From Pseudomonas abietaniphila (GTDB lineage Bacteria; Pseudomonadota; Gammaproteobacteria; Pseudomonadales; Pseudomonadaceae), in the NCBI RefSeq assembly GCF_900100795.1, contig NZ_FNCO01000014.1:62001-126000 (forward strand): DNA of 64,000 nt. Reading direction: 5' to 3'. A program made the position numbers and the translations under genes. The notes under the pieces were generated by a model. That model searched no databases. It saw only the letters and a list, made by a program, of their open reading frames with translations, and was not told the origin of the DNA. This document shows positions 15,098-62,690 of the stretch, one piece after another; the stretch's first letter is position 1, and each line of letters opens with the position of its first letter.

Positions 15098-16279
15098 TTA
15101 TGCCACTCGATCAACCCGCTGTTCCATGGCGGGCAGTGCCCCCTGCTTGTCCGCCGCCGTTTTGGCGTTGGCAGAACCTCCAAGCACGCGTTTGCCCAGT
15201 TCGTAGCCTTTCATCTCGACGTACTTGTGCGCGAACCCTGCAATCACGACACAAAACACAGCAACCGCCACCACAAACAGGTTGTTGCCGAGCATCGATC
15301 CTGTGTCCATGAAGCGCTGACCGCCGATCATCGGCGCCAGCTCCAGGCCCGTGACTTTCTGCGCCACGATGAACACCGTCGAGAGGCAGAACAGGAACGC
15401 TGCATGGGTCATGTAGATCGAGTACGACAGTTTGCCCAGCAGGACGAACACGCCGGTCTTAAGCAGCGCAGACACCAGGCCGCCTTCGAACGCGAACAGC
15501 AACACCAACCCGCAAAACGTCAGGCTGCCAACGGGCGAGCGATAGTCGAAGTCGTTCATCACGATCCAGTAGGTCGCGTACATCATCGCGCACTCAAGAA
15601 CGGTCATCAGCCAAGGCCGGGGCACGAACTTGTCCCGGATGAGCAGGTACACCACATAGGTGATGTTGCCCGCGAAGAAGCAGGACAACCCGAGCATTGC
15701 CCGCTCGACCAAGGGCTCGTTCTCGGAAAAGATCAAGGCAAAGGCCGTCAGCGATATCGCGGCGAACAGCAGGAAGCGGTTTCTCATGGAGAACATGCAC
15801 AGGGCGCCGAACAGCATATAGATGTAGAACTCGATGCTGATGGTCCAGGACGGATAATTGAACGACATGGTTTCCGTCAGTGTGGTCCAGGCCTGAACCA
15901 GGAACAGGTTGGGCAGGATTTCCTTCGGCGCGAAAAGCCCGGTAAAAGGCACGTTGTTCAGATAGAAACCCTTGTTGTAGGCGATCCAGCGGACCGTCTC
16001 GAACAGGATGAATACGGCCAGCATCACCAGGTGCAGCGGATAGAGGCGGAACACGCGGGAAATGAAGAAGGATTTGAACGAAAGATTCGGCTTCATGCCG
16101 TAGGTGTGAGCGAGAACAAAACCACTGAGGACAAAGAAGAAATTGAGCAGTACCTCGTCTCGTCGGAAGAACGGCAGCTGGATGAACGTGTCGACCACAT
16201 GCAGGTGGAAGAACACGACCAGCAATGCGCAAACACCTCTGAAACTGTCGAGTGTGGTGAATCGCTGAACAGGTTTCAT
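15098..16279 (-). CDS. Acyltransferase 3 family membrane protein (OafA-like)
   Basis: A 393-residue polytopic inner-membrane O-acyltransferase. The N-terminal signature TLDSFRGVCALLVVFFHLHVVD carries the conserved arginine and histidine of the family, and about ten hydrophobic segments follow, including FLFVLSGFVLAHTYG-like and NYPSWTISIEFYIYM stretches. It lacks the C-terminal SGNH domain found in some relatives. Such enzymes acetylate exported sugars such as O-antigen or exopolysaccharide; no polysaccharide genes are adjacent. GGAAG nine bases before ATG 16279 supports the start. Confidence 0.88.
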   Translation of the reverse strand: MKPVQRFTTLDSFRGVCALLVVFFHLHVVDTFIQLPFFRRDEVLLNFFFVLSGFVLAHTYGMKPNLSFKSFFISRVFRLYPLHLVMLAVFILFETVRWIAYNKGFYLNNVPFTGLFAPKEILPNLFLVQAWTTLTETMSFNYPSWTISIEFYIYMLFGALCMFSMRNRFLLFAAISLTAFALIFSENEPLVERAMLGLSCFFAGNITYVVYLLIRDKFVPRPWLMTVLECAMMYATYWIVMNDFDYRSPVGSLTFCGLVLLFAFEGGLVSALLKTGVFVLLGKLSYSIYMTHAAFLFCLSTVFIVAQKVTGLELAPMIGGQRFMDTGSMLGNNLFVVAVAVFCVVIAGFAHKYVEMKGYELGKRVLGGSANAKTAADKQGALPAMEQRVDRVA

Positions 16280-16531
16280 AACGCAACTTCCATACTGGTT
16301 AGAAGACCGCCACCCTCGGCGGAGACTGAAGCCAGTACACGGTATTTTGTTCGGCCCAACCTCGACAGTTGAAATATTTCATCCCTGATACAGACGAGGG
16401 AGGGAAAGTTGACGTCAGCGTTTGACGCGTCTGACTAAAGGGTCATGCACAGACCTGATGGTCAACTGTTCGTCAGATTGCTCGACGAAATGCTGACGCC
16501 ATCAGGCCCGTCTTCAGGGTCTCGGTACCCG

Positions 16532-17110
16532 TCACTGTATTGTCTTGCCAGACCGCAGCAACTGACGCGCCGAGTCCGCAATCATCACCACCGCGCCTGC
16601 GAGCATCAGCACATCCTTGAGCACCAGACGGCCTCCGCCAGAGAGGTAAGGGAATCCATAGTTGGCATCGCCAAGGTTGGAGACCCAGGCTTCGGGTGTC
16701 GTGAAGAGAAACGAAAGGGTCACGATGGGCGTCAGGAAGGCGAGGATCGAACCGAGCATGCCCAGACGACGAGAGAACCCGTATGACAGCACCAGCAAGC
16801 CGATCAGGATTTCGACGGTGCCCAGACCGTCGGAGAACGCATAGGTGTGGTTGCTGACCTGCCATTCGCGTTTGACCGGGTCCAGTTGGCCTTCGTGGGT
16901 CAGGTGCTCCTTGTACTCGTGCGGGTGTTCATAAAAGAACGACATCACCGGGCTGTTGGCCACGAACGGGGTAATGCTGTCGGCCTCGTAGGGCACGAAC
17001 TTCAATGCACCGATCCAGATAAAGATGATGGCGACGCCGATCCTGATCAGGTGGATGCCGAGTTTGTCGAGGCGGGAAGCCTTTTGCAGCAGGGTATTGA
17101 GCGTGAGCAT
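16532..17110 (-). CDS. DUF417/YkgB-family membrane protein
   Basis: A 192-residue inner-membrane protein with four hydrophobic segments. The diagnostic DUF417 stretches are RIGVAIIFIWIGALKFVPYEAD (two pieces near residue 22) and the second half around SFLFTTPEAW and YPYLSGGGR-like FPYLSGGGRLVLKD. The E. coli relative RclC is induced by reactive chlorine, but no rclA or rclR gene is next to this copy. Function unknown. About 250 bases separate it from the acyltransferase gene, with nothing recognisable between. Confidence 0.85.
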   Translation of the reverse strand: MLTLNTLLQKASRLDKLGIHLIRIGVAIIFIWIGALKFVPYEADSITPFVANSPVMSFFYEHPHEYKEHLTHEGQLDPVKREWQVSNHTYAFSDGLGTVEILIGLLVLSYGFSRRLGMLGSILAFLTPIVTLSFLFTTPEAWVSNLGDANYGFPYLSGGGRLVLKDVLMLAGAVVMIADSARQLLRSGKTIQ

Positions 17111-17373
17111 GGCGTTGAGCCCTTGGTGATTTCAGTGGACTCAAGGTTAAGGAGACGCGGATCTCAGGTTACGTGCGATCCGCTCAAGCTTTTGCGCAAT
17201 CGTCTCAAACCGGATCGAGGGTACTCCGTGTTTCTTCATTCGCCCGTGGGGACTTTCCCACTATCAACCACAGCGATGATCGCTACCAATACGATTGACT
17301 TCTTAATAATCCAGCGCCGCGTAACATTGCCTCCATACCGAGTTAACAACTGACGAATTCTGGAGCAACCCTC

Positions 17374-17838
17374 ATGAAAACCAACTCACTGATCCTTGGC
17401 CTGGCCTTCTCCGTACTGGCAAGCAGCGCATTCGCTTTGCCCGCTGTCGATGCCAGCCAACACCTGAATTCGCCGGTCGTTGCCGAAAACGGTTCTGACC
17501 ACACCGGCCTGGGTCGCATCGCTGCTGACGGCGCCGATCGTGTCGGTGCCAACCGTGTGGCGGCTGATGGCGCTGACCGCGTTGGTGCTAACCGTGTCGC
17601 TGAAAACGGTTCTGATCACACCAACATGGGTCGCGTCGCTGCTGACGGTGCTGACCGCGTAGGTGCCAACCGCGTTGCTGAAAACGGTTCTGACCACACC
17701 CAACTGGGCCGCATCGCTGCTGATGGTGCTGACCGCGTAGGCGCCAACCGTGTCGCTGAAAACGGTTCTGATCACACCAACATGGGTCGCGTCGCTGCTG
17801 ATGGTGCTGATCACGTCGGTGCAAGCCGCCTGAGCTGA
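17374..17838 (+). CDS. Secreted protein made of nine 13-residue repeats
   Basis: A 154-residue protein. Residues 1-21 are a signal peptide ending AFA. After a short linker, residues 36-152 are exactly nine 13-residue units of two kinds: A (VAENGSDHTxxGR) and B ([VI]AADGADRVGANR), in the order A-B-B-A-B-A-B-A-B. The common pattern is [VI]A-x-[ND]-G-x-D-[HR]-x-x-x-x-R. The mature protein is small, has no cysteine and is rich in Asp, Arg and Gly. I recall similar repeats in small secreted Pseudomonas proteins, some labelled phage infection protein, but no function is established. The gene is monocistronic, closed by a terminator. Confidence 0.85.
   Translation: MKTNSLILGLAFSVLASSAFALPAVDASQHLNSPVVAENGSDHTGLGRIAADGADRVGANRVAADGADRVGANRVAENGSDHTNMGRVAADGADRVGANRVAENGSDHTQLGRIAADGADRVGANRVAENGSDHTNMGRVAADGADHVGASRLS
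17479..17829 (+). repeat. Coding tandem repeat, nine units of 39 bases
   Basis: The DNA behind residues 36-152 of the secreted repeat protein. Units are nearly identical at nucleotide level, for example GCTGAAAACGGTTCTGA recurs four times, which suggests recent expansion by recombination or slippage. Copy number is therefore likely to vary between strains. Confidence 0.9.
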
Positions 17839-17858
17839 TTCACCCTTCGCTCCCTCCC

Positions 17859-17889
17859 AGCCCGGCCTTTGCCGGGCTTGATTGTTTTT
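17859..17889 (+). terminator. Intrinsic terminator of the repeat-protein gene
   Basis: An 8-bp stem AGCCCGGC/GCCGGGCT (17859-17866 and 17871-17878) with a four-base loop, followed by a T-rich run at 17882-17889. Confidence 0.85.
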
Positions 17890-17966
17890 GGGCTCCGCGA
17901 ACGCCCATGCCAAGGCTCTCCACGCGTCCCGGTAAGAAAAAATCCCGCCATTGCTCCGACATTTCT

Positions 17967-17993
17967 TACAGATTTCCCGGTTCCCGCCGATGC
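17967..17993 (+). promoter_or_regulatory. Candidate sigma-28 promoter of the second chemoreceptor
   Basis: TACAGATT (17967-17974), an 11-base spacer and GCCGATGC (17986-17993) match the FliA consensus at six of eight positions in each box. The start codon is about 90 bases downstream. Confidence 0.6.
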
Positions 17994-18081
17994 ATTCGTA
18001 CATTTGAATGTTTTGCTGGCTTTATAGAACAACAACTCTCCAGCTGACGATTTCAAAAAATGGACATTCTGGAGAATTGTG

Positions 18082-20004
18082 ATGAAGAGCTGGTTCGCCA
18101 ACATCAGCGTCAATATGAAGCTGGCCCTCGGGTTCGGTGTCGTACTCGTTTTTACTGCCCTGCTTGCACTGATCGGCTGGAACAGCCTGGGCAACATGAC
18201 GTTCCGCAGTGATCGCGTGGCAGACATCACCAAACTCGGCTACAAACTCACCGACCTGCGCGTGACCCGTCTGCAATACATGCTCAGCAACGGCGATGAG
18301 GCCGTGGCCCAAACCGTGCAGACCGCCCTGGACACCTACAAGGCTCAACAGCAATACCTGCAGACCACGTTCAGCAACCCGCTGAACGTACCCGCGATCA
18401 AAGCGTTGGGCGATCAGATCAGTGCCTATCAGAACTCACTGAACAAGATGCGCGATGGCTATAAGACCAGCGCCAAAGTACGCGCCGATATGGGTGTCGA
18501 TGCCGTGAAGGCGGCCGAGTTGATCGCTGCGATCAACGCTGACGTGATGAAGCTGGACCCGACCGACGAACGTCGTTTCGAACAGTACCAGACCATCATC
18601 AAGGCCAAAGAAGACGTCATGCTGGTGCGCTACGAAGTGCGCGGTTACACCGGCAACGTCAACGCCAAGACTGAAGAAGCCGCCACTCGTCAGCTGTCTG
18701 CCGCCATCAGTGGCCTTGAGAAATTGAATGCGACGTTCGGCAGTACGCATGCCGATCGGTTGAAACAGCTGGAAGCGTCGCTGATCGGGTACCGCAACTC
18801 GGTTCAAGGCTTCAAAGCCGCCACCGACAGCATCAACGCCGCGCGCGCCGAGATGACCGAAGAGCAAGCCCAGATCATCAAACTGAGCCAGCAACTGATC
18901 GACATTCAGAACACGCTGGGCGAGTCCGATGTTCATGAAGCGCGCACGTTGCAAATCGGCGGTACCCTGCTGGCGCTGATCTTCGGTGCCCTGGCGGCGC
19001 TGATCATTACTCGCCAGATCACCGGCCCGTTGCAGGAAACCCTGAAGGTCGTCGACCGCATCGCATCCGGCGATCTGTCACACGACATGATCGTTACCCG
19101 CAAGGATGAGCTGGGCGTGCTGCAGCATGGCATTCAACGCATGGGCACCACCTTGCGTGAACTGATTGGCGGCATCCGGGACAGCGTGACGCAAATCGCC
19201 AGCGCCGCCGAAGAACTGTCTGCGGTCACCGAGCAGACCAGCGCTGGCGTCAACAGCCAGAAAGTAGAGACCGACCAGGTCGCCACTGCCATGCACGAGA
19301 TGTCGGCCACCGTTCACGAGGTCGCGCGCAATGCCGAACAAGCGTCGGTCGCCGCCTCCGATGCCGACAAGCAGGCCCGTGATGGCGACAAAGTCGTCGG
19401 CGAAGCGATTGCACAGATTGAAAAGCTGGCCAGCGAAGTGGTCCGCTCCACGGACGCCATGAGCGTTCTGGAACAGGAAAGCGACAAGATCGGCAAGGTG
19501 ATGGACGTGATCAAGGCCGTTGCCGAACAGACCAACCTGCTGGCGCTCAACGCCGCGATCGAAGCCGCTCGCGCAGGCGAAGCCGGCCGTGGATTTGCGG
19601 TCGTGGCCGATGAAGTCCGTGGCCTGGCGCAGCGCACCCAGCAATCCACCGAAGAAATCGAAGGCCTGGTTGCCGCCCTGCAGAACGGCACGCGTCAGGT
19701 CTCGGACATCATGCTCAGCAGTCGCAACCTCACCGACAGCAGCGTGGCGCTGACCCGCAAGGCCGGTACTTCGCTGGAAAGCATTACCAACACCGTCTCG
19801 AACATTCAGGCGATGAACCAGCAGATCGCCGCCGCGGCCGAGCAGCAAAGCTCGGTGGCCGAAGAAATCAGCCGCAGCATCCTCAACGTGCGAGACGTCT
19901 CCGAACAGACCGCCGCCGCCAGTGAAGAGACCGCCGCGTCCAGCGTCGAACTGGCCCGTCTGGGCAACCAGTTGCAGATGCTGGTCAGCCACTTCAAGGT
20001 GTAA
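18082..20004 (+). CDS. Methyl-accepting chemotaxis protein with a long HBM-type sensor domain
   Basis: A 640-residue chemoreceptor. Membrane segments lie at about 11-31 and 292-311. The roughly 255-residue periplasmic region between them is all helical and of the size of the helical bimodular (HBM) domain, found in receptors such as McpS and TlpQ for organic acids or amines. HAMP (about 312-365) and the signalling domain follow, with the tip [16 protein letters not shown] near residue 485. GGAG at 18071-18074 supports ATG 18082 rather than GTG 18079. The ligand is unknown. Confidence 0.93.
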
Positions 20005-53043: not shown

Positions 53044-53129
53044 GGTTTCCTACCTTCTTTGTGGCACTTGGGGGAACTGGTTTCTTGCGAATTCTTGGGC
53101 AGTGAGGGGAATCGGCCCCTTCGTCAGTC

Positions 53130-53215
53130 CAGATAAAACGGGTGCAGATAAAACGTGTATCCAGATAAAACTTGAGGCTGGGAGCCTGCCCTACGCCGGT
53201 GGGAGACCCACAGAC
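53130..53215 (-). repeat. Direct repeats and hairpins in the rpsO-pnp spacer
   Basis: CAGATAAAAC occurs three times (53130-53139, 53145-53154, 53162-53171), 15 and 17 bases apart. Closer to rpsO, AGGCT-GGG-AGCCT (53174-53186) and GTGGG-AGA-CCCAC (53199-53211) form two small hairpins. In E. coli this spacer holds the RNase III site through which Pnp represses itself. Confidence 0.6.
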
Positions 53216-61346: not shown

Positions 61347-62690
61347 TCAGGCGCAAACTTCAGCAACCAGTTTTGCGAGTTCGTCGGCGTAGCCAGCGAC
61401 CAGTGTTTCGTCCTCACCTTCAACCATCACACGCACCAGCGGTTCGGTGCCGGACTTGCGCAGCAGCACGCGACCACGACCACCCATGGCCGCCGTCACG
61501 CGCTCACACGCTTCCTTGACCGCAGGGTGCTGAACTGGGTCCACACCGCCGCCCTCAAAGCGCACGTTGACCAACACCTGCGGGCATTTTTTCAGTCCTT
61601 GACGAGACTCCGCCAGGCTCTGCCCCGAGCGCTTCAGCGCCAGCAGCACCTGCAACGCAGCGATGATCGCATCACCGGTCGTGGTGTGCTGGAAGCAGAC
61701 GACGTGACCCGAATTTTCACCACCGACCTGCCAGTTACGCTCCAGCAATTCGGCGATGACATAGCGGTCACCCACATTGGCCCGCACGAATGGAATGCTC
61801 AGGTCGGCGAGCGCCAGCTCAAGGCCCAGATTGCTCATCAGAGTGCCCACGACGCCGCCCTGCAACCGGCCACGCTCGTGCAGATCTCGGGCGATGATGT
61901 AAATCAATTCATCCCCGTCGACGATAGCCCCGGTGTGATCGACCATCAGGACGCGATCACCATCGCCATCGAAGCCAATGCCCAGATCGGCCTTCTCGGC
62001 AACGACAGCCGCCTGCAGAGCACCCATATGGGTCGAACCACAGTCATCGTTGATGTTCAGCCCGTTGGGCGCAGCCGACAGCACCGTCACCTGCGCACCC
62101 AACTCCCGGAACACGTTTGGAGCCACCTTGTAGGTCGCGCCATGGGCGCAATCGACCACAATCCTGAGCCCTGAAAAACTGGTGCTGGTCGGCACGCTGC
62201 TTTTGCAGAATTCAATGTAGCGGCCTGCCGCATCGTTGATCCGGGACACCTTACCGAGATGCTCAGACTCCGCCACCGTCATCGGCGCATCGAGCAACTC
62301 CTCAATCATCATTTCGACCTCATCAGGGAGCTTGGTGCCTTTCCCGGAAAAGAACTTGATGCCGTTATCGTAATGCGGGTTGTGTGACGCACTGATCACG
62401 ATGCCCGCTTGCGCTTGAAAGGTGCGGGTCAGGTAGGCGATCGCAGGTGTCGGCATTGGACCGAGCAACATGACGTCTGCGCCGGCCGCGGACAATCCAG
62501 CCTCAAGCGCAGACTCGAACATGTAACCCGATATGCGAGTGTCCTTGCCTACCAGGATGCGGCACGCGCCCATCTTGCGAAATGCCATCCCGGCGGCCCA
62601 GCCCAGCTTGAGCATGAAATCAGGGGTGATGGGGAATTGACCTACACGACCGCGAATGCCGTCGGTTCCGAAATATTTCTTAGTACTCAT
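61347..62690 (-). CDS. glmM: Phosphoglucosamine mutase
   Basis: A 447-residue enzyme that turns glucosamine 6-phosphate into glucosamine 1-phosphate for cell-wall and LPS precursors. The phosphorylated serine is S102 in ISASHNP, the metal loop is GFDGDGDR, and the C-terminal phosphate-binding loop is [13 protein letters not shown]. It is 15 bases after folP and cotranscribed with it. Confidence 0.98.

Follow-up and report, generated by a model that had tools for sequence, protein, structure and literature searches.

What kind of protein results when a gene encodes little more than a signal peptide and nine copies of a 13-residue unit, and what might such a protein do for the cell? The question is raised by a gene of Pseudomonas abietaniphila that lies in the window analysed here, by which we mean the whole stretch of 64,000 nucleotides (positions 62,001 to 126,000 of contig NZ_FNCO01000014.1). 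The gene and the elements next to it are the following.

17374..17838, forward strand: gene for the exported repeat protein, 154 residues (list of open reading frames)
17374..17436, forward strand: signal peptide of 21 residues, the last three being AFA, with a presumed cleavage site after them (sequence and family alignment)
17482..17832, forward strand: nine 13-residue units in the order A B B A B A B A B (unit comparison and TRF)
17362..17365, forward strand: candidate ribosome-binding site, GGAG (by eye)
17859..17878, forward strand: terminator-like hairpin (scan; chance alone would give one such site over the length scanned)

In the protein the nine units follow MKTNSLILGLAFSVLASSAFA and a short linker. 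An earlier sequence-only reading of the gene had called the product secreted. A Sec signal peptide is indeed present and the support ends there; after export the protein would be either periplasmic or extracellular. The gene is flanked by an acyltransferase-like gene and a chemoreceptor gene, with a DUF417 gene adjoining. The chemoreceptor, downstream at 18079-20004, has a helical bimodular (HBM) sensor domain. Searches of Pfam, NCBIfam and PDB sequences with the protein gave no informative match, an Rfam scan of 16000-19000 gave nothing useful, and a sigma-70 promoter scan of 17100-18100 found none. A TTGACT...TAACAT pair can be seen by eye; its spacer is about 21 bases and the sigma-70 scan is empty, and we make no claim for it.

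The tandem array itself is far beyond chance. TRF detects it independently with a period of 78 (score 413) and a period of 39 (score 130), and comparison of the units agrees with the nine contiguous 13-residue units of two types that had been proposed. Unit A reads AENGSDHTxxGR[VI] and unit B reads AADGAD[RH]VGA[NS]R[VL]. The repeats had also been described as exact and as strictly alternating, and neither description holds: three different protein sequences are found among the four A units and two among the five B units, and the order given above includes two adjacent B units. At the DNA level one pair of A units is identical. A units agree with each other at 33-39 of 39 bases (mean 0.88), B units at 29-35 of 39 (mean 0.81), and A with B at 0.50. 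Elsewhere in the window TRF lists two other short tandem repeats, at 18960-19005 and 53128-53171.

The window gene is one member of a large, little-studied Pseudomonas family of exported 13-residue-repeat proteins. It has what the family leads one to expect, namely a signal peptide and tandem units with a G-[GAS]-[SAD]-[DRH] core. Relatives are present in 280 of the 298 genomes of the genus that were searched, and at least 47 loci were found among named genome contigs, all in records titled Pseudomonas. At the level of the taxonomic family, a profile search matched 104 of 248 genomes, in 10 of 19 genera. When the order was sampled, relatives appeared in 11 of 293 genomes, seven of these belonging to the same genus (own genome included), and weak matches occurred in three genomes outside the taxonomic family. 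Among 98 family proteins the lengths range from 81 to 392 residues and the motif counts from 2 to 24, the minimum of 2 being the requirement of the filter that we used. The 13-residue unit is kept even in a distant subfamily of the VAEGGSDRLIERR type. A version with a 22-residue unit (VAENGSDRTIDRLHKQMGDEAR) occurs in adjacent pairs in another genus (L182:3897-4556; L125; L128). In the literature that we searched, which leaves most subscription journals outside its coverage, we found no description of the family as a whole.

Proteins with such repeats are often labelled "phage infection protein". Two proteins with this label, which may belong to the family, could be compared by description: that of P. 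fluorescens 2P24 has a Sec signal peptide, like the window protein, and that of P. fluorescens In5 rises 32-fold with Rhizoctonia. With the window protein or its sister member L202 as query, phage records gave no relative. Plasmid records contained one relative of the window protein and none of another member, L149. On plasmid pCC1524 a family gene (L046, NZ_CP047266.1 72202-72588) lies beside a methyltransferase gene and near glycosyltransferase genes.

In the genome from which the window is taken (7.2 Mb in 54 contigs) there are seven copies, spread over six contigs. These are the window gene on C8, two genes side by side on C5, one each on C23 and C21, and short ones on C22 and C26. In the C21 copy (L142:4199-4756), which adjoins CbtA/CbtB-like genes (names by eye), the repeats run on in another frame, and the copy looks broken or mis-assembled.

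Do these genes have anything in common apart from their products? Comparison of the upstream regions shows that they do, and the window gene carries the common element in the following form.

17263..17277, forward strand: MexT-type nod box ATCA-ACCACAG-CGAT, 111 bp before the ATG (exact match to the consensus of PMC11432991)
17263..17289, forward strand: extended promoter element common to the window gene and the two C5 paralogs (genome pattern search)

The published consensus of the MexT nod box is given as ATYA(N7)YGAT (PMC11432991). For a count across the family, genes with N upstream or without a start passing crude signal-peptide and motif filters were dropped, and 98 distinct upstream regions were thinned to 59 by an ungapped identity limit of 80%. 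If no more than one mismatch is allowed, the nod box is found at -120 to -100 in 49 of these 59 promoters (29 exact, 20 with one mismatch), as against 1-4 of 59 (0-2 exact) in each of six control windows of equal width. Exact boxes occur between -125 and -80 in 31 of the 59 promoters, which have common ancestry and are not independent; simple base shuffles gave 0.3 per set. Ten promoters have no box. They include three of the four C23-type ones, and the miss at L035 stems from a start called too far upstream. The C23 copy of the own genome (L143:4616-5575, 319 residues) has no nod box, and because of this it is probably under other control.

When the own genome was searched with the extended pattern of the window type, three sites matched perfectly, each of them before a family gene, and one more matched at two mismatches; a control pattern has 0. 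As the pattern was built from the family's own sites, these numbers show only that nothing else in the genome matches at 0-1 mismatches. There is also a stricter MexT box, ATCA-N5-GTCGAT-N4-ACYAT. In the 7.2 Mb of the own genome it has a single perfect site, before the C26 paralog, and one further site elsewhere with a single mismatch; the window site departs from it by more than one mismatch. A search of 59 genomes gave 39 perfect sites, distributed over 26 of them, and the reversed control pattern has 0. Thirty of the sites were read. Nineteen lie 104-111 bp before a repeat gene, one (L210) precedes a repeat coding sequence whose start is outside the sequence read, seven precede a second small protein family (six by script, L201 by eye) and three precede other sequence. 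Where the repeat gene is linked to AsmA, an exact nod box stands at -108 to -111 in 12 of 12 rows and the strict box in five; this count covers one strand and 16 rows from 30 loci, two wrong reads (L145, L148) being unused. Two rows, L163 and L171, have neither AsmA nor box. This promoter link is the strongest clue that we found, and it was absent from the sequence-only reading.

The second small family consists of proteins of 86-94 residues with the motif NHFxNEVxGxNDQFRFL (L186, L188, L192, L195, L199, L201 and L211, with boxes at 1501). Its member in the own genome (L175, near G000:C26:515151) has the strict box with one mismatch. An NCBIfam search with L186 gave no match.

The C26 paralog leads to a gene that already has a name. 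It encodes 89 residues and lies between a TetR-like gene (by eye) and an AsmA gene (by Pfam), with ferritin beyond AsmA and urease accessory-like genes (by eye) on the other side. In PAO1 the order is PA4880 (bacterioferritin), PA4881, PA4890 (desT) and PA4891-93 (urease genes). Judged by this neighbourhood and by the wording of the paper on PA4881, the C26 paralog is probably the counterpart of PA4881. A similar arrangement is seen in a genome of another genus (G390), where two repeat genes directly follow a ferritin gene that has AsmA on its other side. A perfect strict box precedes the start of the first of them by 110 bp. The order of AsmA, ferritin and repeat gene differs between this locus and that on C26, and the neighbours are the same. 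Ferritin was found in two of six genomes of that genus at the set limit.

PA4881 is described as a tandem repeat protein under MexT, and the PA2206 regulator is described as binding its promoter too (PMC3557286). The same paper reports no increase in sensitivity to hydrogen peroxide for a PA4881 mutant, a result that counts against the stress mechanism proposed below. The gene heads a table of the MexT regulon, with a log2 value of -6.5 in a mexT deletion (PMC12607905), and it appears among the genes that move with MexT or mexEF-oprN in three other reports (PMC3848899, PMC10848761, PMC4521719). Where these papers characterise it (PMC3557286 among them), they call it hypothetical, uncharacterised or of unknown function.

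The window gene most probably belongs to the same family as PA4881 of P. aeruginosa. The two share tandem repeats (by the paper's statement) and LysR-type control, and the probable counterpart on C26 has the perfect strict box. The window gene differs from PA4881, which is known to us from descriptions, in being a paralog at a different locus, where both the box and the unit have diverged. Expression that depends on MexT is published for PA4881 only. Such boxes are common to several LysR regulators, which leaves the regulator of the window gene uncertain; ATN11AT, for example, is reported as common to 11 regulators of P. syringae (PMC11957545).

We put forward the following explanation, to which we give slightly better than even chances as a whole. 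The window gene, probably activated by MexT or a close LysR-type relative under stress, would encode a flexible repeat polypeptide of the PA4881 family that is exported by Sec and variable in length; that its job is a protective one is a guess. Several other explanations deserve to be weighed against it.

The first is that the window protein binds or stores a metal in the periplasm, in the manner of PtrA, with the D/N-G-x-D motif or histidines as ligands. PtrA is described as a periplasmic copper-tolerance protein, its role in type III secretion being disputed in the same sources (PMC8872213, PMC7922089). PtrA (PA2808, NF041599) resembles the family in having a signal peptide followed by an AEGGSDR-like motif. 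Matches to the PtrA N-terminal model NF041599 (cut-off 31) come from the sister members L202 and L149, which are of the VAEGGSDR type and reach 76.8 and 70.1 bits, and the window protein, which has 6 His in its mature part, aligns with L202 at 50% identity. However, the window protein is absent from the matches to this model at E <= 10, and the C23 and C26 copies do not match it either. None of the 15 places listed for the model in the own genome is a family gene. Eight of these places are over the cut-off (L214-L221), on four contigs (C30, C38, C40, C42), and the three proteins among them that were read have the motif once, after the signal peptide, whereas a related motif is repeated nine times in the window protein. 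There is no Cys in the mature window protein, and among 98 family proteins only 2 have any in their mature part, with His at 2.95%. In addition, the promoter element points to a LysR-type regulator rather than CopR, and no metal-binding family of Pfam or NCBIfam matched the window protein. Metal binding, which had been suggested from the D/N-G-x-D pattern, is thus possible for this protein and weakly supported; a PtrA-like function as such we consider unlikely. RTX-type calcium-binding repeats were considered too: at E <= 10 Pfam returned only DUF4148 and Glyco_hydro_49, both below cut-off.

A second explanation is that each 13-residue unit makes one coil of a regular beta-solenoid, which would serve as a structural element or a binding surface. 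A 24-unit relative folded as a single sequence with AlphaFold2 does give a solenoid with a pLDDT of 85.8 and a pTM of 0.83, but only two of five models agree, and the window protein itself, folded with 29 rows, comes out unstructured (mean pLDDT 37.5, pTM 0.11). AlphaFold2 has been reported to invent confident solenoids for near-perfect repeats (PMC11795689), and for this reason we do not rely on the 24-unit model. A structure search with it against the PDB listed 94 matches at E <= 10, but not one of them reached E <= 0.001. As far as such models go, no order is predicted in the window protein. The solenoid that had been suggested for it is not supported, and we regard this explanation as very unlikely.

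A third explanation makes the protein a variable factor, secreted or at the surface, whose changing unit number alters recognition by hosts, phages or competitors. Variation in unit number, which the sequence-only reading anticipated, is real. At the window-type locus, where the window has 9 units, L012 has 8, L047 has 10 and L065 has 6 (counted by eye). The acyltransferase-like gene and the chemoreceptor flank the relative in all three, and the parts of them that are present are 81-85% and 84-90% identical to the window, respectively; a DUF417 gene is next to the relative only in L012. At the C5-type locus, recognised by MFS-transporter-like and flavin-reductase-like genes (names by eye), several lengths differ by 13 or 26 residues, in a comparison whose narrow search pattern returned nothing from several such loci. 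Seven units are present in the pCC1524 plasmid copy of P. asturiensis and 6 in a copy of P. triticifolii DOAB 1067, with 400 of 400 bases identical upstream and 393 of 400 downstream. An ungapped comparison of the flanks of L046 and L051 (229/400, 131/400) was out of register or involved diverged sequence, and was left out. Unit number thus changes between close relatives, all of them different named species. Together with the signal peptide for export this would suit a variable factor, but the sequence of the unit stays nearly constant rather than diversifying, the promoter is a common one of the stress type, and no part that could anchor the protein to the cell is seen. We judge this role to be quite improbable. 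Least probable is that cleavage of the protein releases a short peptide in many copies, for signalling or as an antimicrobial: near-identical short units behind a signal peptide, each with Arg at or near its end, would be expected of such a precursor, but no gene for a processing enzyme, immunity or export is seen by eye beside the window gene, and most family copies stand alone or in pairs.

If we return to the exported, stress-induced polypeptide that we favour, the best-supported chain of steps is as follows. Electrophile, disulfide or other redox stress would act on MexT or a close LysR-type relative. From its site at 17263-17277, the nod box, this activator would probably switch on transcription of the window gene; the promoter and the published work on PA4881 suggest both steps. 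Export by Sec, to be expected from the signal peptide, would deliver a probably flexible polypeptide to the periplasm or to the outside of the cell. There the number of units would matter more than their exact sequence, and units could be gained and lost by recombination or slippage.

What would such a polypeptide be good for? The composition may give a hint. The 133 residues of the mature window protein include 13 Arg, 0 Lys and 0 Cys. In the 98 family proteins Arg makes up 10.1%, Lys 0.8% and Cys 0.03%, as compared to 6.55%, 3.08% and 1.11% in 50 other long open reading frames of the window, and 76 of the 98 are free of Lys from the first motif onward. The excess of Arg over Lys may be due in part to GC content. 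Our best guess is that the protein protects or buffers the envelope as a polymer, perhaps by offering a sacrificial target that is rich in Arg and free of Cys. A bolder version is that LysR-activated disordered polymers guard the envelope against electrophiles throughout the genus, with Arg-rich, Lys- and Cys-poor units trapping dicarbonyls and a unit number tuned by recombination setting the dose; taken as a whole this is improbable in our estimation. Hydrophilins were another candidate. Their limits are Gly above 6% and hydrophilicity above 1; the protein passes the first (Gly 14.3%) and, with a GRAVY of -0.54, not the second, and we rejected the assignment.

Whatever the function is, the probable link made here connects PA4881 with an exported family that is genus-wide, present in multiple copies, variable in length and equipped with a common promoter element, and this would open its role to tests in laboratory species that are harmless. 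It also suggests that the MexT response reaches beyond efflux.
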